Below, one piece after another: positions 3,667 through 25,142 of a DNA stretch of 64,000 nucleotides. The stretch comes from Marinobacter lutaoensis. Its GTDB lineage: Bacteria > Pseudomonadota > Gammaproteobacteria > Pseudomonadales > Oleiphilaceae. Within the stretch, counting starts at the first letter, position 1. Each line of letters starts with the position of its first letter. Position numbers and translations under genes: made by a program. The notes below the pieces were generated by a model. The model ran no database searches. It saw only the letters and a program-made list of their open reading frames with translations, and was not told the origin of the DNA. Location: positions 62,001 to 126,000 of the forward strand of contig NZ_MSCW01000008.1 in the NCBI RefSeq assembly GCF_001981305.1, given 5' to 3'.

Positions 3667-4746
3667 TCAGATCTGGTCGAAATCCAGGGTGACCTTGTCG
3701 CTGACCGGGTAGCACTGGCAGGACAGCACGTAACCGGCCTCGACTTCGTAGTCCTCCAGGGCAAAGTTGGCGTCCATCTCGACCTCGCCTTCCACCACCC
3801 GGGCCTTGCAGGTGGAACACACACCCGCCTTGCAGGAGTAAGGCAGATCGGCGCCTTCGTCGTTGCCTGCGTCGAGGATGCTCTTGGTGTTGCGGGTCAG
3901 GCCGAAGGTCATCGAGCGGCCATCGGAGATCACCGTGACCTCGCTGATCGCGGCCGGGTCGACGGTGTTGTTTTCCCGGTCCTTGCGGGGCCGGGGCGCG
4001 CCGCCAGCGGGGGTGAACAGTTCAAAGTGCACGCGCTCTTTCGGCGTACCGTGGCGGTACAGGGAGTCACGGACGTTTTCCGTCATCTCCTGGGGGCCAC
4101 AGATGAAGGCTGCGGTCAGGCTGTCCACATCCACCCAGCGATCGAACAGGGCGTCGCACTTGGCATGGTCGATCCGCCCGTTGTACAGGTCGATGTCCTG
4201 CTGCTCCCGGCTGAAGATGTACACCAGGTTGAAGCGTTCCATGTCGCGGTTCTTCAAGTCCTCCAGCTGATCCCGGAACAGAGTGCTGGCGGTGGAGCGG
4301 TTGCCGTAGAACAGGGTGAACCGGCTTTTGGGCTCGGTTTCCAGGGTGGTCTTGAGGATCGACAGAATCGGCGTGATGCCGCTGCCGGCGGCGACCGCCA
4401 GGTAGTTGCCCTCGCGCTCGGGATCCAGTTCGACCGAGAAGTGCCCCTGTGGCGGCATCACTTCCAGGGTGTCGCCCGCTTTCAGCGTGTCATTGGCGAA
4501 GGTGGAGAAGCGGCCGCCGGGAATCTTCTTGACCGCGATGCGCAGCTCATTGTCCCGGACACTGGTGCAGATCGAATAGGAGCGGCGCACTTCCTCGCCG
4601 TCCAGCCAGGTACGCACCACCAGGTGCTGGCCCTGTGTGTAGCGGAACGTGTCTGCAAGGTCTTGCGGCAGATCGAAGCACAGGGATACGGCGTCTCTTG
4701 TTTCAGGCCTGACCTCTTTGAGGGTCAGTGGATGGAATTTTGTCAT
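3667..4746 (-). CDS. paaE: Phenylacetyl-CoA 1,2-epoxidase reductase subunit PaaE
   Basis: 359 residues from the ATG at 4746, giving the PaaE N-terminus MTKFHPLTLKEV. The frame stays open farther upstream, but that part overlaps paaD and does not look like PaaE. It has a ferredoxin-NADP reductase-like FAD domain (RRSYSICTSV about 58-67), an NAD(P) domain (AAGSGITPILS) and a C-terminal plant-type 2Fe-2S domain with PYSCKAGVCSTC and a later LSCQ cysteine. It passes electrons from NADPH to the PaaABC di-iron oxygenase. It lies 13 bp after the paaD stop, within the run paaA-B-C-D-E-Z. Confidence 0.95.
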   Translation of the reverse strand: MTKFHPLTLKEVRPETRDAVSLCFDLPQDLADTFRYTQGQHLVVRTWLDGEEVRRSYSICTSVRDNELRIAVKKIPGGRFSTFANDTLKAGDTLEVMPPQGHFSVELDPEREGNYLAVAAGSGITPILSILKTTLETEPKSRFTLFYGNRSTASTLFRDQLEDLKNRDMERFNLVYIFSREQQDIDLYNGRIDHAKCDALFDRWVDVDSLTAAFICGPQEMTENVRDSLYRHGTPKERVHFELFTPAGGAPRPRKDRENNTVDPAAISEVTVISDGRSMTFGLTRNTKSILDAGNDEGADLPYSCKAGVCSTCKARVVEGEVEMDANFALEDYEVEAGYVLSCQCYPVSDKVTLDFDQI

Positions 4747-4759
4747 GGTCGTATCGGCT

Positions 4760-5326
4760 CTAGATGCATTTGAAGTAATCGAAGGGTTCGAGGCAGTCCT
4801 TGCACCGGTACAGGGCCTTGCAAGCGGTGGAACCGAATTCGCTGACCCGCTCGGTGTGATGGCTGCCGCAATGCGGGCAGACAATGACCTCCTCCTGACC
4901 CAGCAGACTGCGTTTGCTGGCGGAGCCCTGAGGGGGCGCGATGCCAAATGCGCGCAGCTTTTCTTTCCCTTCGGGGGTAATCCAGTCGGTGGTCCAGGCC
5001 GGGGTCAGGACGCGCCGGATGTGCGGATCGCGGATGCCGGCGGCCCGCAGGGCCTCGGCGATCAATTCCTCGATCAGCTCGGTGGCGGGACAGCCGGAGT
5101 AGGTGGGCGTGACGTCCACCGACACGGTCCGGCCGTCCCAGTGGACCGCCCGGACGATGCCGAGCTCGACCACGCTGACCGCCGGAACCTCCGGGTCCTT
5201 GACCTCGTTGAGCAGTGTCCAGATCGCCTCTTCCGTCAGCCGCTCGGGGTGGGCGTTGCCCGGTACCCGATCGCTGGCGATGAGGGTGTCCACTGCCGAC
5301 CTTTCGGAATCACCAGACTTTTGCAT
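4760..5326 (-). CDS. paaD: Phenylacetate-CoA oxygenase assembly protein PaaD
   Basis: 188 residues from the ATG at 5326 (MQKSGDSERS). The frame continues upstream but that segment overlaps paaC. It contains a MIP18/DUF59 domain (VKDPEVPAVSVVELGIV and TYSGCPATELI) and a C-terminal zinc-ribbon-like part with CPHCGSHHT and YRCKDC. PaaD is thought to help mature the iron centre of the phenylacetyl-CoA epoxidase. The chosen start overlaps the paaC end by 17 bp, typical of coupled genes in this cluster. A later start is possible because the first 30 residues are poorly conserved in style. Confidence 0.92.
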   Translation of the reverse strand: MQKSGDSERSAVDTLIASDRVPGNAHPERLTEEAIWTLLNEVKDPEVPAVSVVELGIVRAVHWDGRTVSVDVTPTYSGCPATELIEELIAEALRAAGIRDPHIRRVLTPAWTTDWITPEGKEKLRAFGIAPPQGSASKRSLLGQEEVIVCPHCGSHHTERVSEFGSTACKALYRCKDCLEPFDYFKCI

Positions 5327-6074
5327 CGGGGTACGCTCGCTGGAGAAACTGCATTTCCGCCAGGATGAAACCCAGGTGTTCGGTGTGTTCACCGCGCTTG
5401 CCGCCCAGATACATCCAGGCATCGTCCGGTTGCGGGGTCAGGGTGGCTTCCTGAAGCACCGCCTTGACCATGCCACGCCAGTCGTCCCGCAGCTGCTCCG
5501 GGTCCGGGCCAATGCCGGCCTTGGCGATCTGCTGGTCAACCTCGTCCGGCTGGATCAGTTCACCGGTGAATCGCCAGAGCAGGTCCACGGCGTCCTGCAT
5601 GCGGCGGTGGCTCTCCTCGGTGCCGTCGCCCAGGCGCTTGATCCACTCGGAGGAACGGCGCAGGTGATAGGTCACTTCCTTGAGGGCCTTGGCCGCGATG
5701 CCGGCAATTCGCTCATCCGGGGCGTTCACCAGGCTCTGCAGGGTGTGGTAGTGCCACACGTCGAAGAAGAACTGGCGGGCCATGGTGACGGCGTAGTCAC
5801 CATTGGGCTGCTCGGTCAGGAGCAGGTTGCGGTATTCGTGGGCGTCCCGGCGGAAGGCCAGCATGTCGGCGTCGCGGCCCTGGTCTTCCAGCTCGGCGAC
5901 GTACTCATACCAGTTGCGGGCCTGCCCCACCAGGTCAAGCGCCACGTTCATCAGCGCCATTTCCTCCTCGAGCGCGGGTGCCTTGCCACACAGCTCGCAC
6001 AGGCGTTGCCCGAGGATCATGTCGGAGTCAGCCAGACGCAGCAGGTAGCTTTGCAGAAGTTGTGTATCGGTCAT
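5310..6074 (-). CDS. paaC: Phenylacetyl-CoA 1,2-epoxidase structural subunit PaaC
   Basis: 254 residues, a helical ferritin-like fold protein of the usual PaaC length. Recognisable segments are RLADSDMILGQRL near the start, the helix with DLVGQARNWYEY, and LQEATLTPQPDD toward the C-terminus. PaaC pairs with PaaA in the di-iron oxygenase that epoxidises the aromatic ring of phenylacetyl-CoA. PaaC itself is the structural, non-catalytic partner. It lies 11 bp after paaB and overlaps paaD. Confidence 0.95.
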   Translation of the reverse strand: MTDTQLLQSYLLRLADSDMILGQRLCELCGKAPALEEEMALMNVALDLVGQARNWYEYVAELEDQGRDADMLAFRRDAHEYRNLLLTEQPNGDYAVTMARQFFFDVWHYHTLQSLVNAPDERIAGIAAKALKEVTYHLRRSSEWIKRLGDGTEESHRRMQDAVDLLWRFTGELIQPDEVDQQIAKAGIGPDPEQLRDDWRGMVKAVLQEATLTPQPDDAWMYLGGKRGEHTEHLGFILAEMQFLQRAYPDAKVW

Positions 6075-6085
6075 CGGGAGCCCCC

Positions 6086-6367
6086 TTACATGTGGCCAAC
6101 TTCGTCGGGCAGCTGGTAGAAGGAGGCGTGCCGGTACACTTTGTCCTCGGACGGATCGAACAGGGCTTCTTTTTCATCCCCGGTGGAGGCGGTGATGGCG
6201 CTGGACGGCACCACCCAGATGCTGACGCCTTCATTCCGTCGGGTGTACAGGTCGCGGGCGTTTTCCATGGCCATCGCCGCGTCGGCGGCGTGAACGCTGC
6301 CGACGTGCTTGTGGTTCAGGCCGTGCTTGCTACGCACGAAAACTTCGTAAAGGCTCCATTCAGCCAT
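6086..6367 (-). CDS. paaB: Phenylacetyl-CoA 1,2-epoxidase subunit PaaB
   Basis: 93 residues from the ATG at 6367, preceded by GGAGGA at normal spacing. The start MAEWSLYEVFVRSK and the motif HKHVGSVHAADA are typical of PaaB, the small subunit bridging PaaAC heterodimers. Length agrees with the family (about 95). It is 17 bp after paaA and 11 bp before paaC, in the usual A-B-C order. Confidence 0.95.
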   Translation of the reverse strand: MAEWSLYEVFVRSKHGLNHKHVGSVHAADAAMAMENARDLYTRRNEGVSIWVVPSSAITASTGDEKEALFDPSEDKVYRHASFYQLPDEVGHM

Positions 6368-19520: not shown

Positions 19521-19689
19521 GGTCTTCGGTTCTCTCTCTTGCTGCTTGGGGGTTTCCTGACATCGGATGCAGGGAAGAGCATACCAGATTCGACTGCCGG
19601 CGCATGGTGTTTTCGCGGTCGGCCGTTACAATGACTAACAGAGGCATCCCGTGTGTTGCCGACCTGCCCACGTGTGAAGGAGTGTGCCC

Positions 19690-20940
19690 ATGTCTGGCCA
19701 GGAAAGTCTGTCCCTCCGTCGGTTGCGACAGTTCCAGCCACTCAATCGGTTGACGGACGAGCAGCTGGTGGTCCTGGCCAGTCGCGCCGAGCGCCGGACC
19801 CATGGGCCCGGCCAGCGGGTGGTGGAGAAAGGGGTGCGGGACGGTCTGGACTTCTTTCTGGTCAGTGGCGCCGTCGAGCTGCAGGCCCCGGACGGTCGCA
19901 AATCCGTGATCGAGGCCGACAGCGACAAGGCCCTGAACCCCATCGCCCGGCTGCAACCCAGAATGTACGATGTGGTGGCGATCCGGCCCTCGGAGTTTCT
20001 CGTGGTGGAGCAGGATGTGCTGAACCAGCTGCTGCGGGCTGCGCCGGTAACTCAGGAGGACGTGCATTCGGCTGACGGTCCGGCGGGTGACGAGGAGCAC
20101 CAGCTGCTGATGGAGTTCTACGCGGAGCTGCGTTCCAATCAGGTCAAGCTGCCAAGCATCCCCGACGTGGCCTGGAAGGTGCGGCGCGCCGTCGACCGGG
20201 AGGACTCCACCGCGGAGCAGGTGGCGACGGTGGTCTCCGCCGATCCGGCGATGGCCGCGAAACTGGTCCGCGCCTGCAACAGCCCCCTGTACCGGGGCTT
20301 CAGCGATGTCCGGAACGTGCAGGAGGCGGTGGTTCGTCTGGGCATGCGCACCACCCGGCAGCTGGTCGCGGTGTTTGCCATGCGGGAGATTTTCAAGACC
20401 CGCCAGGCGCTGCTGCAGTCGGAAATGGAGCGGTTGTGGCGTCACTCCCGTGAGGTCGCGGCGCTGTGCTGGGTGTTGGCGGACCAGGCCACCCGCATCA
20501 ATCCGGAGGAGGCGCTGCTGGCCGGCCTGCTGCACGACATTGGCGTGGTGCCGGTGCTGGTTCAGGCGGAGTACCACGGTGCCCTGTTTGCCAACGAGGC
20601 CAATCTCCAGCACGCCATTCGTGAGCTGCGGGCGGATGTGGGAACCGCCGTCCTGCAGAACTGGGCCTTCCCCGACGCCTTCGTGGATGCCGTCCGTCAT
20701 GCCGAGGACTGGCATTACGACAGCGGCGATACCGAGCCTGGCCTGGTGGATCTTGTCATTCTGGCGCAGATGCACGCCATGATCGGCTCGGGCCAGAACG
20801 GCGACCTGCCGCCGTTCGACCAGGTCCCCGCCTACCGCCGGCTGGGCGAGCTGGAGCTGAGCGCCTCGCGCAGTCTTCAGATACTCACGGAAGCTCGCGC
20901 CAAAGTGGATGAAGTCCAACAATTGCTGTCGATACGATGA
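19690..20940 (+). CDS. Cyclic-nucleotide-fold / HDOD domain protein
   Basis: 416 residues from the ATG at 19690, 7 bp after AAGGAG; an in-frame GTG two codons upstream is less well placed. Residues about 10-115 resemble a cNMP-binding fold (FQPLNRLTDEQLVVLA, GQRVVEKGVRDG, FFLVSGAVELQ). Residues about 150-340 are an HDOD domain (LPSIPDVAWKVRRAV, LVRACNSPLYRG, AVVRLGMRTTRQLV, LLAGLLHDIGVVPVL). HDOD proteins are signalling outputs lacking the HD phosphohydrolase set. It is coupled by a 4-bp overlap to the LON-domain gene. Confidence 0.88.
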   Translation: MSGQESLSLRRLRQFQPLNRLTDEQLVVLASRAERRTHGPGQRVVEKGVRDGLDFFLVSGAVELQAPDGRKSVIEADSDKALNPIARLQPRMYDVVAIRPSEFLVVEQDVLNQLLRAAPVTQEDVHSADGPAGDEEHQLLMEFYAELRSNQVKLPSIPDVAWKVRRAVDREDSTAEQVATVVSADPAMAAKLVRACNSPLYRGFSDVRNVQEAVVRLGMRTTRQLVAVFAMREIFKTRQALLQSEMERLWRHSREVAALCWVLADQATRINPEEALLAGLLHDIGVVPVLVQAEYHGALFANEANLQHAIRELRADVGTAVLQNWAFPDAFVDAVRHAEDWHYDSGDTEPGLVDLVILAQMHAMIGSGQNGDLPPFDQVPAYRRLGELELSASRSLQILTEARAKVDEVQQLLSIR

Positions 20941-21533
20941 TCTCCATTCCCGACCACGGCATTCCCCTGTTCCCCCTCAATTCCGTCATCCTTCCCCGGG
21001 GCCGGATTCCGCTGCAGCTGTTCGAGCCCCGTTACATTGACATGCTGTCCCGTTGTCTCAAGGCGTGCCACGGGTTCGTGGTGGTGTTGTTGCGGGAAGG
21101 TGAGGAAACCGGACGTCACGTTCATTTCCACGACCTGGGCACGTATGTCCACATCGTCGATTTCCAGCAACTGAACACCGGCCTGCTAGGCATTACCGTG
21201 GAAGGCGAGGCTAAGGTCCAGGTGATTCGCCACTGGCAGCAGCCGGATGGACTCTATGTCGGTGACCTGCAACGGTTGGCGGAGGAAACCCGCAGCGAGG
21301 TGCCGGAACAGTTCGGCGAGCTGCCGTCGGTGTTGCATTCCCTGTGCCGGCACCCGGTGGTGCGCGAACTGGATATGGATGTGGACTACGACGATGCCCG
21401 GGAGGTGGGATGGCGGCTGGTGGAGCTGCTGCCCCTGGATAAACAGGAAAAACTGAGGTTGATGGCTCTGCAGGATCCGCTGGAGCGTCTCGGTCGCCTG
21501 CAGGCGCTGATCACGACTCTGGAAGGGGGATGA
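20937..21533 (+). CDS. LON substrate-binding domain protein (no protease domain)
   Basis: 198 residues, a stand-alone LON N-terminal domain: IPLFPLNSVILPRGRIPLQLFEPRY at the start, GFVVVLLREGEE, then TGLLGITVEGEAKVQV. There is no AAA or Ser-Lys protease domain. It starts in the ATGA overlap with the HDOD gene, implying coupled translation and perhaps related function. Its last 23 bp overlap the convergent DedA-PAP2 gene. Confidence 0.9.
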   Translation: MISIPDHGIPLFPLNSVILPRGRIPLQLFEPRYIDMLSRCLKACHGFVVVLLREGEETGRHVHFHDLGTYVHIVDFQQLNTGLLGITVEGEAKVQVIRHWQQPDGLYVGDLQRLAEETRSEVPEQFGELPSVLHSLCRHPVVRELDMDVDYDDAREVGWRLVELLPLDKQEKLRLMALQDPLERLGRLQALITTLEGG

Positions 21534-22992
21534 CCTTGCCCGCCGGCGTCAGCGAATAAGCCGCCCGGGCATCCGGCCACTGCTGGTGGAGGTAGGCCGT
21601 GGTGAACGTCAGCCACAGCAGGAAGGCCAGCCAGGTCAGGCTGTCGACCGAGAGCGGCACCCGGTCGTAGCGGCTGAAGCTGGCGCGTACCAAACCCGTG
21701 ATGGCGAGTCCGAGCAGGACGCCTCCCGCGACATCGGTGAACCAGTGCACCCCGAGGTACAGACGGCTGACGGCCACCGGCACCAGGGGCAGCGACAGCG
21801 CGACATAGGTTTGCCACCGCCGCCGGTGCCGGGTTTCGGCGGCGATGAACGCGGCCAGCAGGGTGGTGAAGACGGTGATGCCGGCGGCATGGCCGCTGGG
21901 AAAGGCGCCGGAGGCGGGAGGCTGGAATACAAGGTCGGGGCGGGCAACCCCGAGGGTCGATTTCAGCAGTGACACCAGGCCCAGGGTAAGCAGGGTCGCC
22001 AGCAGGATGTGAACGGCGGCCGCGTAGTACCCCCGGAACGCCAGCACCAGGATGGCCAGCCCGGCGGCACAGACCAGAACGGGCGGGTCACCCAGCAGGG
22101 TGAAGGCGATCGCCGGACCGTCCAGCAGCGGTTGGCGGAGTTGCTGGAACCAGGACAGCACCGCCTGGTTGAATTCGTCCAGAATGCCGTTGACGGCCAG
22201 CTGCCCCCAAATCAGGAACAGACCGGACGCGGTTGCCGCCAGCAGCAGCGAGGCCAACGGGAACTCCCCCGCCCGTGCCGGCCGGTCGTTGGTGTACAGT
22301 CGCCAGAACCGGTGCCCGGCCCCGTAGCGTGCCATCCGCTGCTCGAACCAGCGGTAGACCCGGCTGCCTTCGCCCAGCCCCAGCTGGATGCGGGACAAGA
22401 TGAAATAGACGACACCCAGGCCCGCCAGGCTGATGCCTATGACTGCGTAAAAGTGCGCCGGTGGCCTAAGCCCGCTGTCCAGGGCACTGCCCACCATGAA
22501 TCCCGGCACAACGTAGACCGGTGCCCAGGCCACGGCCGAACTGATGTTGAAAGCCAGGAATCGGCGCCAGGGCATCCACAGGGCTCCGGCCACCAGAGGG
22601 ATCACCGGTCGCACCGGACCGACGAAACGGCCGATAACCACGCTCTTGCCACCGTGGCGATGGAAAAAGCGTTCACCCTTGGCGATTAGGGTGGGGTATC
22701 GGCTCAGGGGCCAGACCGAGGTCAGCCGGCCCTGCAGCAGGCGGCCGAGGGCAAAACTGAGGGTGTCGCCGGCCACTGCACCCAGGCCGGCCCAGACCAA
22801 AGCCTCGGACAACGGCATGCCGGTTTTGCCCGCCAGGGCCGCCACCGCGAACAGGATCGCCACGCCCGGCACCAGGATGCCGGCGATCGCCAGGGACTCG
22901 ACGAAGGCCGTGGCGAACAGCGCGGCCGCCAGCCATCCAGGGGCGCCGGACAGCCAGGCAATAAGGTTTGTCAGCCAGGGACTGCCAGTCAT
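21511..22992 (-). CDS. DedA (VTT) domain fused to a PAP2 phosphatase
   Basis: 493 residues. The N-terminal half (about 15-200) is a DedA/VTT membrane domain: E32 in the first helix region and the GRFVGPVR motif (121-128) followed by PLVAG. The C-terminal half is a PAP2 lipid phosphatase with all three motifs: KSTLGVARP (344-352), PSGHA (365-369) and SRLYLGVHWFTD (409-420). DedA proteins of the UptA type flip undecaprenyl phosphate and PAP2 enzymes such as PgpB dephosphorylate undecaprenyl pyrophosphate, so the fusion could do both recycling steps. That role is inferred. It is third in a leftward operon, overlapping the GGSEF gene by 4 bp. Confidence 0.92.
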   Translation of the reverse strand: MTGSPWLTNLIAWLSGAPGWLAAALFATAFVESLAIAGILVPGVAILFAVAALAGKTGMPLSEALVWAGLGAVAGDTLSFALGRLLQGRLTSVWPLSRYPTLIAKGERFFHRHGGKSVVIGRFVGPVRPVIPLVAGALWMPWRRFLAFNISSAVAWAPVYVVPGFMVGSALDSGLRPPAHFYAVIGISLAGLGVVYFILSRIQLGLGEGSRVYRWFEQRMARYGAGHRFWRLYTNDRPARAGEFPLASLLLAATASGLFLIWGQLAVNGILDEFNQAVLSWFQQLRQPLLDGPAIAFTLLGDPPVLVCAAGLAILVLAFRGYYAAAVHILLATLLTLGLVSLLKSTLGVARPDLVFQPPASGAFPSGHAAGITVFTTLLAAFIAAETRHRRRWQTYVALSLPLVPVAVSRLYLGVHWFTDVAGGVLLGLAITGLVRASFSRYDRVPLSVDSLTWLAFLLWLTFTTAYLHQQWPDARAAYSLTPAGKVIPLPES

Positions 22993-23987
22993 GCCTCGAC
23001 GGATGCTCCCGGGCTGAACCAGACCGAGTTGCCGCCGTGTTTGCGGGCCTCGAGCATGGCCTGGAGCGCGCGCTTGCGCAGGGTATCGGTTCGGGTGTCG
23101 CCGTTGCCCCGGGTGGTGCAGCCGAGGCTGACACTGACCTTGTTAACCACCGGCCAGTCATGTTCGGCGATGGTCCGGCGGATGCGTTCGGCAATGACCC
23201 GGACCCCTTCCTCCGGGGTAAAGGGCAGGATGAGAAAGAACTCCGAGCCCCCCAGCGCATAGAGGGTATCGCCGGCACGGATCACGCCGAACAGGTGCCG
23301 GGTCATGGCTTGCACCAATCCCTGCAGGCCGGGTTCGCCGTGCAGGCCCTTGACTTCTTCCACGTAGTCGATGCCCAGGTGAATCACCGACAGCGGATGG
23401 CCGGTGGCGATGGAGCGGCTGATTTCCTTCTGCAGGGTTTCGTCCAAAAACCGGGCATTGTGGGCGCCCGTGACCGGGTCGGTGATCGCCAGGTCCTCGG
23501 CGGACTGGGCCATGTGGTCATAATGCCACGTGTAGAGCGCGGTAACTGCCAGCAGCGCAATCAGGCCGGACAGGGTGATCAGGGCGTCGGTGCTGTCGAG
23601 CTGCAGAAACAGGGTGACGGCGAGGGCGGCCAGCAGCAGGCAGGAGAGGGCGAGCCCCTGGCGCAGGGGCAGGATCAGCAGGTTCAGCACCAGCAGGGGC
23701 ATGGTCCAGTGGCTGATGCCGGGGCCATGCATGGTGATCTGGGCGGTCAGCAGGCCGCTGCTGAGTCCGGTGAGGATCACCAGATGCCCCGGGGCGGACA
23801 GCTGGTGCCGGCGGCACGCCACCGTGTAGGCAATGCCGGCCAGGGTCAGGACCGCCATGCCGGCCGCCAGATAGAACAGGTCGTAGAAGCCGTATCTCAG
23901 GTTCTGCACCGCCAGAGCGGCAATGAACAGGGTCGCCAGCAGGTAGCCGATGCCATGGGTCCAGGTTCGCAGGCGCGTTTCAGTCAT
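22989..23987 (-). CDS. Membrane GGDEF-domain protein with altered active site (GGSEF)
   Basis: 332 residues. About five or six N-terminal membrane helices (residues 12-155) lead to a GGDEF domain starting at LAITDPVTGAHNARFLDE (166-183). The signature reads GGSEF (246-250), replacing the metal-binding third acidic residue by Ser, so cyclase activity is doubtful. The I-site RAGD (237-240) sits the standard five residues upstream, so c-di-GMP binding is likely kept. It overlaps the next degenerate GGDEF gene upstream by 4 bp and the DedA-PAP2 gene downstream by 4 bp. Confidence 0.9.
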   Translation of the reverse strand: MTETRLRTWTHGIGYLLATLFIAALAVQNLRYGFYDLFYLAAGMAVLTLAGIAYTVACRRHQLSAPGHLVILTGLSSGLLTAQITMHGPGISHWTMPLLVLNLLILPLRQGLALSCLLLAALAVTLFLQLDSTDALITLSGLIALLAVTALYTWHYDHMAQSAEDLAITDPVTGAHNARFLDETLQKEISRSIATGHPLSVIHLGIDYVEEVKGLHGEPGLQGLVQAMTRHLFGVIRAGDTLYALGGSEFFLILPFTPEEGVRVIAERIRRTIAEHDWPVVNKVSVSLGCTTRGNGDTRTDTLRKRALQAMLEARKHGGNSVWFSPGASVEA

Positions 23988-24997
23988 GGCGAGGGTGTCT
24001 CCGGCTGCGGCGGCGTTTTGGTGGGATGAGTCCAGGCGCTGTAGGACTGGGTACGGTTGCCTCCCTGTTGCTGGGCCCGGCGCAGGGCGTGCGCCGCGCT
24101 TTGCTGGAGGCTGTTGGCGTCGTCGCCGATGTTGAGCCCGGCGACTCCGGCGCTGACCGTCAGCTTGAGGTCATGGGAGGCCAGCAGGGTCATCAGCCCG
24201 GTCCGGATGCCTTCCGCCCGGACCACGGCCTCACTGGTGGCGATGCCGGGGAGAATCACCAGAAACTGGAGGTCCGCCACCCGGTAATAGGTGTCGAAGT
24301 CCCGGAGCTGAGAATGCAGGTAGCGGCCCACCCGGGGCAGAATGGAGCGGATGTCCTCGTCCGGCTCCTGGTCGCTGAGGTGGGCGTCCAGGCCGATCAT
24401 CAGGACCGACATGTCCGTACCTTCCCGCTCGCTGCGCTGGATTTCCTTGTGCAGGTCGGCGGACAGGTACTCGCGGCTGGCGGCCTGGGTCAGCTCGTCG
24501 GTGCGACGCAGGGGGGCCAGTTGCCGGCTTTTGTATTCCCGCAGGAACACCAGCAGCCCGGACAGCAGCAGGGTCAGCAGGAAGGCACTGGTGATCTGGT
24601 GCCGTTCCGGCAGCGGTCCGGACCACTGGATACCGGTCAGCGCCAGGACACAGAGAGCCAGGGACAACAGTGATGCGACGGCGAGGGGGAACAGGGCAAA
24701 GGCCACCAGCGGCAGCGCGTACAGCCAGTGTCCCAAGGCCCAGGGGCCGAGCCGGAGGCTGGCAATCACCAGCAACGCCAGGACCAAGAAGAACAACCTC
24801 TGGACCAGGGGCCACGGCGGCTGTTGCCGGCGCTGGTGGAAGGCCGGGTCACAGAGAATCAGGCCCGCGCCCGCGGCGGCCGCGGCCGAAGCCATGGGCT
24901 GACCGAACAGGGCGCTGAGCACGGTGATGGCAAGCAGCGCCAGGAAACCGACGCGTGACAGTTTGTTCAACAGGAACTTCTCGGCCGTCTGGGCCAT
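23984..24997 (-). CDS. Membrane protein with strongly degenerate GGDEF domain
   Basis: 337 residues from the ATG at 24997 (GGAAGGA just upstream); the frame is open farther but without a ribosome site. Hydrophobic helices occupy about 15-152. A GGDEF-like domain begins at RRTDELTQAASREYLSADL (164-182). At the signature position it reads ADLQF (241-245), so it should be unable to make c-di-GMP. The I-site motif RDFD (232-235) is at the normal five-residue spacing. A proline-rich tail ends the protein. It is first of a three-gene operon with the GGSEF protein and DedA-PAP2. Confidence 0.88.
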   Translation of the reverse strand: MAQTAEKFLLNKLSRVGFLALLAITVLSALFGQPMASAAAAAGAGLILCDPAFHQRRQQPPWPLVQRLFFLVLALLVIASLRLGPWALGHWLYALPLVAFALFPLAVASLLSLALCVLALTGIQWSGPLPERHQITSAFLLTLLLSGLLVFLREYKSRQLAPLRRTDELTQAASREYLSADLHKEIQRSEREGTDMSVLMIGLDAHLSDQEPDEDIRSILPRVGRYLHSQLRDFDTYYRVADLQFLVILPGIATSEAVVRAEGIRTGLMTLLASHDLKLTVSAGVAGLNIGDDANSLQQSAAHALRRAQQQGGNRTQSYSAWTHPTKTPPQPETPSP

Positions 24998-25027
24998 GGC
25001 GTGTCCTTCCTTTCCCGGCGCATCCGT

Positions 25028-25058
25028 TTGAGTATGACCTATCGCGCAGCGGTATAAT
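25028..25058 (+). promoter_or_regulatory. Candidate promoter for proA
   Basis: A perfect TATAAT (25053-25058) lies about 85 bp before the proA ATG. TTGAGT (25028-25033) is the best -35 but gives a long 19-bp spacer. The 145-bp gap separates proA from the divergent GGDEF-like operon. Confidence 0.4.
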
Positions 25059-25142
25059 AATCGTTTGGGGTGCGTACTTGAAACGGGAAGGGTAAAGTGA
25101 GCACCCTGCACGTGACGACATCAGCATGAACAAGGTAACCGG

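Follow-up and report, generated by a model that had tools for sequence, protein, structure and literature searches.

What may a pair of degenerate GGDEF membrane proteins sense, and on what may it act, when both are encoded directly before a DedA-PAP2 fusion enzyme? This question is raised by a three-gene cluster of Marinobacter lutaoensis, which was analyzed within a stretch of 64,000 nucleotides (NCBI RefSeq assembly GCF_001981305.1, contig NZ_MSCW01000008.1, positions 62,001 to 126,000), here called the window, of a 3.83-Mb genome. The genes, named P1, P2 and P3 from upstream to downstream (Table 1), all point leftward and are joined by two 4-base-pair (bp) ATGA overlaps, P1-P2 and P2-P3.

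A preliminary description of this DNA had reported these overlaps together with the coordinates, strand and lengths of the three genes, and had read ADLQF and GGSEF in place of GG(D/E)EF, each with an RxxD inhibitory-site (I-site) motif before it; all of this was found as described. It had further proposed that the second messenger cyclic dimeric guanosine monophosphate (c-di-GMP) gates recycling of the undecaprenyl carrier. The observation was partly confirmed and its interpretation partly supported: the cluster is real and conserved, and the pair is more interesting as a receptor than the trio as a gated flippase. On the strength of the residue patterns set out below, we see about an even chance that P1 and P2 are a catalytically dead GGDEF membrane pair which jointly forms a c-di-GMP receptor, with modulation of P3 as its likeliest output.

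Table 1. Coordinates of the genes, motifs and residues discussed (window positions unless a locus is named)
Feature	Position	Strand	Description
P1	23984..24997	-	337 residues; hydrophobic predicted helices about 1-165, then degenerate GGDEF domain, ADLQF
P1 Arg188 to Arg191	24425..24436	-	candidate secondary-site arginines
P1 RDFD, residues 232-235	24293..24304	-	primary I-site motif
P1 ADLQF, residues 241-245	24263..24277	-	replaces GG(D/E)EF
P2	22989..23987	-	332 residues; hydrophobic predicted helices, then degenerate GGDEF domain, GGSEF
P2 Arg191	23415..23417	-	secondary-site arginine position
P2 RAGD, residues 237-240	23268..23279	-	primary I-site
P2 GGSEF, residues 246-250	23238..23252	-	active-site motif, drifting among relatives
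P2 Arg268	23184..23186	-	third I-site arginine, PleD Arg390-type (PMC3838380)
P3	21511..22992	-	493 residues; DedA (VTT) domain fused to PAP2
P3 Val44	22861..22863	-	YghB Asp51 position; Glu32, Arg122, Arg128 kept
P3 PAP2 signature residues K344 to D420	21733..21963	-	
P1/proA gap, 145 bp	24998..25142	.	operon promoter expected here
PF04072 gene, f38	L071 5955-6863		
PF04072 gene, f38	L073 4065-5057		
PF04072 gene, f38	L074 6013-6975		
PF04072 gene, f38	L244 4070-4954		
PF04072 gene, f38	L245 5000-5926		
PF04072 gene, f38	L247 3109-4044		
PF04072 gene, f38	L251 5166-6026		

Residues kept and lost in P1 and P2

Both proteins match the GGDEF domain model PF00990 of Pfam (P1 58.2 bits, P2 73.9 bits), are 28% identical to each other in a local alignment of 196 columns, and are probably located in the membrane, as judged from their hydrophobic predicted helices. 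Motifs were counted in 70 loci of the window's own family (L001 being the window's copy; a single P1 and a single P2 are truncated), 12 loci of family f38, 14 of f36 and 2 of f7; P1 of the f36 loci L093 and L097 was read directly from the frames and included. Canonical GG(D/E)EF was found in none of the 98 P1 and none of the 97 readable P2 copies. In contrast, the RxxD of P2 (R237, D240) was retained in all 97 readable copies across the four families, and so was Arg191; Arg268 was retained in 95 of 97, both f7 copies having Lys. An active diguanylate cyclase acting through GGSEF was ruled out by conservation, since relatives show NDSEF, NESEF, EDGEF, KDSEF and similar strings at this place. 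The literal GGSEF was absent from the best 80 of 102 named relatives and occurred among the 70 family loci only in the window's copy, to which this spelling is local. In P1, all 97 readable copies have both Arg188 and Arg191, and RxxD was found in 84 of the 97 (69/69 own-family, 11/12 f38, 2/2 f7 and 2/14 f36). At the position of P2 equivalent to Arg191 of P1, Arg was found in 5 of 97.

An alignment of 50 diverse sequences from the four families was used to rank columns by conservation. Only E185, R188 and R191 were invariant in the P1 domain, while seven of 154 columns were so in P2 (E188, R191, G217, R237, D240, P255 and G261), with R268 ranking tenth; the same seven were obtained with an alignment of 30 sequences. 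The first four GGDEF positions ranked only 88-143 among the 150 P1 columns and 104-124 among the 154 P2 columns. Judged by these column ranks, conservation of the P2 I-site exceeds what chance would give.

As a base rate, all but one of the 41 other GGDEF matches in the window's genome were read (the omitted one is below the Pfam cut-off), and these 40 comprise 26 canonical and 14 non-canonical domains. RxxD was found in four of the 14, of which three are near-canonical (GGEEL, GGEEY, GGDEL) and the fourth is one of the remaining 11, clearly degenerate domains; RxxD is therefore not needed for the fold. In the canonical domains, the position of P2 Arg191 held Arg in 9 of 26 and that of Arg268 in 11 of 26.

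Named relatives were assessed as a separate set, the best 80 of 102, whose counts are kept apart because it overlaps the own-family set in species. Since the pattern by which it was picked contained Arg268 and not RxxD, this set tests RxxD and not Arg268. All three genes were present in 77 of the 80 loci; L184 and L186 lack P3, and L172 begins inside P2 and hence lacks P1. RxxD was found in 80/80 P2 and 79/79 P1 copies, and canonical GGDEF in none. The closest named relatives in the scan were Marinobacter species, with a P2 identity of at most 78%.

The degenerate-GGDEF protein PelD binds c-di-GMP, and an Ala substitution at R363, D366 or R395 abolishes binding (PMC7112168); residues of this kind can thus make a receptor of a degenerate GGDEF protein. 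With site positions matched through alignments to cyclases of solved structure, P2 carries the RxxD with a further arginine (PelD R367/D370/R402 type) as well as the GGDEF fold and the lost active site of a PelD-type receptor. P1 alone lacks this combination. The proposal that these degenerate domains act as receptors is thus well supported at the sequence level for P2, where in each of four families the I-site was retained despite drift of the active site; for P1 it stands only in part, carried by the helix arginines.

The AlphaFold models had mean predicted local distance difference test values of 89.7 for P2 and 81.1 for P1. Against c-di-GMP-bound PleD (2wb4), the P2 model aligned over 167 residues (Z 26.1, root-mean-square deviation 1.9) and the P1 model over 152 residues (Z 21.2, root-mean-square deviation 2.1). 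P1 and P2 were modelled singly and compared with solved structures only, by which the membrane halves are hardly tested. In their GGDEF domains the models are similar to cyclases with bound c-di-GMP, which indicates the fold and not binding.

P3 and the distribution of the cluster

The preliminary description had considered all motifs of P3 intact, and this held for one half of the protein. Residues K344, R351, P352, P365, S366, H368, R410, H416 and D420 are invariant in 24 aligned sequences including the window's and make up K-x6-RP, PSGH and SR-x5-H-x3-D, the PAP2 phosphatase signature. With this signature and a PF01569 score of 60.2 bits, the C-terminal half is predicted to be a phosphatase (Pfam domains: VTT/DedA 41-164, PAP2 326-439). 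In the DedA half, the counterparts of YghB Glu39, Arg130 and Arg136 are kept and Asp51 is replaced by Val, which rules out a DedA half with all motifs intact. At this position 62 of 66 own-family rows (the window and its duplicate included) have Val and three have Ile, one row being unread; three of the four f38 rows have Val and one has Ile; and of 19 other rows from the order, 16 have Val, two Ala and one Ile. Asp was found in none of the readable P3-type rows. The arginine region of the L106 row was left out of this alignment. Glu39, Asp51, Arg130 and Arg136 are reported as essential in YqjA/YghB-type proteins (PMC7818093, PMC10127716). At these four positions, which characterize the UptA type (COG0586), P3 reads E, V, R, R and so lacks the complete set; with the NCBIfam UptA model NF052604, a whole-protein model of 198 positions, it scores 28.4 bits against a cut-off of 250.

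The trio is flanked by a divergent proA gene upstream and a convergent LON-domain gene downstream, giving the order proA-P1-P2-P3-LON. A promoter scan returned a single weak promoter-like site on the plus strand, opposite to the trio, and a terminator scan of the gene strand returned six terminator-like matches, all within P1, P2 and P3 (shuffle mean 1.8). The LON substrate-binding-domain gene (20937-21533, plus strand) and P3 overlap by 23 bp at their 3' ends (21511-21533). Within 19684-21533 it is preceded, with a 4-bp overlap, by a gene for an HDOD and cyclic-nucleotide-binding-domain protein; the HDOD and the stand-alone LON-domain gene recur near the trio in many family loci.

The own family was surveyed in 121 genomes (cut-offs P2 E ≤ 1e-30, P1 E ≤ 1e-20, P3 E ≤ 1e-40). 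P2 was found in 120, P1 in 119 and P3 in 115. The six genomes without P3 are five sampled g10 genomes and G013 (88% complete). P1 and P2 are present in G013 and in the g10 genomes G009, G021, G027 and G033 (96-99% complete); in the fifth, G039 (68% complete), neither was found. Among the 70 own-family loci read, P2 was present in all (broken off before the motif in one), P1 and P2 frames overlapped in 66 (starts being picked by a heuristic), P3 adjoined P2 in 65 and proA lay beside the pair in 64. The six loci without proA are five of genus g4 (L033, L047, L052, L055, L060) and L036, which is cut by the contig end. In the g4 loci, LON and ilvD still lie downstream of the trio. In L039 (g10), P2 runs straight into the convergent LON gene. 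The P3 of L064 consists of two open frames of 180 and 387 residues, possibly a frameshift or a broken gene.

Beyond the family, 135 genomes of the order were sampled. The own-family P2 profile matched 9 of them at E ≤ 1e-50. The top group of a wider P2 profile comprised 14 genomes, all of f1, f38, f7 and f36, with best E values from 5.5e-125 to 8.3e-47; immediately below them comes an ordinary GGEEF protein of G125 (6.3e-45), which leaves a narrow margin in score. Matches were found in 38 of the 44 f38 genomes. Four families share the adjacency and order of P1 and P2, and the pair stands beside a divergent proA in all 28 other-family loci read and in 92 of 98 loci over the four families; as the 28 were fetched because they match, they give no rate for their families. 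The neighbourhood search thus showed that the gene order recurs among relatives and is not unique to this strain. A chance or strain-specific cluster was ruled out, since both the gene order and the motifs are found again across the family and in three further families.

P3 follows the pair less regularly. P3 or a DedA gene comes after it in 2/2 f7, 10/14 f36 and 7/12 f38 loci and was not seen in 9 of these 28. In f38, DedA stands immediately after P2 only in L072 and L249; in L071, L073 and L074 the two are separated by a methyltransferase-type gene of the opposite strand. A methyltransferase-type or DUF3549 gene follows P2 in three f38 loci with a later DedA and in the five where none was found. 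A Pfam scan of the DedA genes of L071, L072 and L246 found no PAP2. The leucine carboxyl methyltransferase-type gene (PF04072; Table 1) is convergent with P2 and lies between pair and DedA, or where DedA was not found. The P3 profile matched in 50 of the 135 genomes, and 20 further loci were fetched, 19 because they matched P3 and L099 because it matched P1. In L090, L092 (the f36 genome G155, P3 itself), L096, L098, L103 and L105, a DedA or DedA-PAP2 gene immediately adjoins proA and the pair was not found at E ≤ 1e-4; in L088 it lies 2.9 kb from proA, and in L091 and L095 it lies beside LON with proA not in view. In L106, from a 6.2-Mb genome, a DedA-PAP2 gene (4237-6306) and proA are about 2.7 kb apart, separated by an alpha/beta hydrolase gene; no PA4010-like glycosylase gene was found in the six frames scanned of that genome.

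A proposed divided receptor and its alternatives

P2 has the ligand residues while most f36 P1 copies keep only the helix arginines, which suggests a division of labour between the two proteins. P2 would be the ligand-holding half, in which Arg237 and Asp240 of the RxxD together with Arg268 hold an intercalated c-di-GMP dimer, and P1 would be the partner half, in which Arg188 and Arg191 on an early helix of the domain complete the site. c-di-GMP would cross-link the cytosolic domains of P1 and P2 and so alter the arrangement of the membrane helices. In this operon, the pair would most likely act by modulating the DedA-PAP2 envelope-lipid enzyme P3, which is not an obligatory target. The gene arrangement, the motif states, their conservation and the predicted domain fold were observed; from them we infer the heteromer, the binding of c-di-GMP and the output, with P3 as a candidate target. 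The stronger claim that this is an ancient heteromeric receptor of two dead cyclases, with the inhibitory site split into a primary part on P2 and a secondary part on P1 and mostly coupled to a DedA-PAP2 enzyme, seems doubtful to us.

Several observations weigh against the divided receptor. The copies are related by descent, so their counts are not independent trials. RxxD occurs in 23 of the 26 canonical domains of the window's genome and is, taken alone, ordinary; the position of P1 Arg191 holds Arg in the same number of them, and the conservation of this arginine may hence be structural and alone proves little. P1 has lost RxxD in 12 of 14 f36 copies (L093 and L097 both among those without it; Arg188 and Arg191 stay throughout L093, L097 and L232-L243) and in 1 of 12 f38 copies. 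An arginine at its third position was found in only 3 of 98 copies, an alignment-dependent count, and the window's P1 has Gly263 there. With this residue set, P1 alone is a poor receptor candidate. YfiN carries RxxD yet does not bind c-di-GMP (PMC3838380). In the five g4 loci read, the trio is kept and proA was not found beside the pair in the fetched stretch. Finally, since the pair occurs without P3 in some loci and P3 without the pair in others, the two are separable neighbours at an old locus.

The explanations considered overlap: carrier gating is a special case of the divided receptor, and a pair with another output shares its receptor step. In the former, P1 and P2 would switch P3, whose PAP2 half dephosphorylates undecaprenyl pyrophosphate and whose DedA half flips undecaprenyl phosphate inward. 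The P2-P3 overlap, the presence of P3 in most family genomes and its intact PAP2 signature agree with this, as does a suggestion of Todor et al. (PMC10127716) that in DedA-PAP2 fusions the PAP2 part may remove phosphate from the carrier ahead of flipping. Pseudomonas aeruginosa has a DedA-PAP2 protein of its own, PA4011, of which 235 of 236 other Pseudomonas genomes have an orthologue and whose function is called elusive (PMC12893004); according to the same paper, fewer colistin-resistant mutants emerge upon its deletion, which also favors carrier gating. However, the deletion left fosmidomycin sensitivity unchanged, and PA4011 did not replace the undecaprenyl-phosphate flippase PA4029. Together with Val, Ile or Ala at the Asp51 position, where Asp is reported as essential, the four g10 genomes, G013 and the nine loci of f36, f38 and f7 that have the pair without P3, and the P3-type genes beside proA without a pair in several families, this makes gating of carrier recycling, the preliminary interpretation, quite improbable and not the leading account. 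Another lipid phosphate as substrate of P3 fits as well as the undecaprenyl carrier.

More credible, if still tentative, is a c-di-GMP receptor pair whose output is not P3 and which works by way of its own membrane domains or of a partner encoded elsewhere, P3 being a long-standing neighbour. DedA or DedA-PAP2 genes at proA or LON where no pair was found, the P2 I-site kept in pair loci without P3, and the methyltransferase-type or DUF3549 gene after P2 in eight f38 loci point this way; the tight coupling of the trio in Marinobacter and the presence of P3 in 110 of 114 high-quality family genomes argue for P3. It also has to be considered that the pair no longer binds c-di-GMP and that it retains RxxD and the helix arginines for the sake of folding or of P1-P2 packing, or to bind another nucleotide. 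As YfiN illustrates, RxxD is necessary and not sufficient; E185, R188 and R191 of P1 could form a packing helix, and PleD was solved with guanosine tetraphosphate (ppGpp) or pentaphosphate (pppGpp) plus c-di-GMP (entry titles 9g85 and 9g86). Against this stand the rarity of RxxD among clearly degenerate domains of the same genome and the retention in P2 of ligand residues described for PelD and PleD, and we regard a pair without c-di-GMP binding as unlikely.

Were the site divided between P1 and P2, two pseudo-enzymes would make up one second-messenger receptor in nearly every examined genome of the Marinobacter family. Such a split receptor would offer a route for direct c-di-GMP action on lipid-carrier or phospholipid handling, a kind of route not seen in the open-licence literature among the matches listed, and a handle on DedA-PAP2 proteins generally. 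Neither pair nor trio was described in the titles and abstract openings of that literature, again among the matches listed.

Comparison with known systems

PelD shares with P2 a dead GGDEF domain and a residue set of the same kind, RxxD plus a further arginine. It differs in being a single gene with a GAF domain among pel genes, whereas two genes stand here beside proA and a DedA-PAP2 gene. A PelD orthologue was ruled out, since the locus is not a pel operon and no GAF domain was found among Pfam matches up to E 1. The product-inhibited cyclases PleD and WspR have the same fold and combine a primary RxxD with an arginine of a partner domain; in contrast to them, P1 and P2 have lost the active-site motif in all readable copies, and the halves of the site seem to lie on two proteins.

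P3 shares the two-domain make-up PF09335 plus PF01569 with PA4011, a likeness by domains (PMC12893004). Unlike P3, PA4011, named papP, is encoded in a PhoP-regulated operon with the DNA glycosylase gene PA4010, according to PMC7916210. The DedA half of P3 is 36% identical to Escherichia coli YabI over 149 residues, YabI having Thr at the Asp51 position, and 30% identical to E. coli YghB over 142 residues, and it keeps the counterparts of YghB Glu39, Arg130 and Arg136. From the two E. coli proteins P3 is set apart by Val at the Asp51 position and by the PAP2 domain fused to it.

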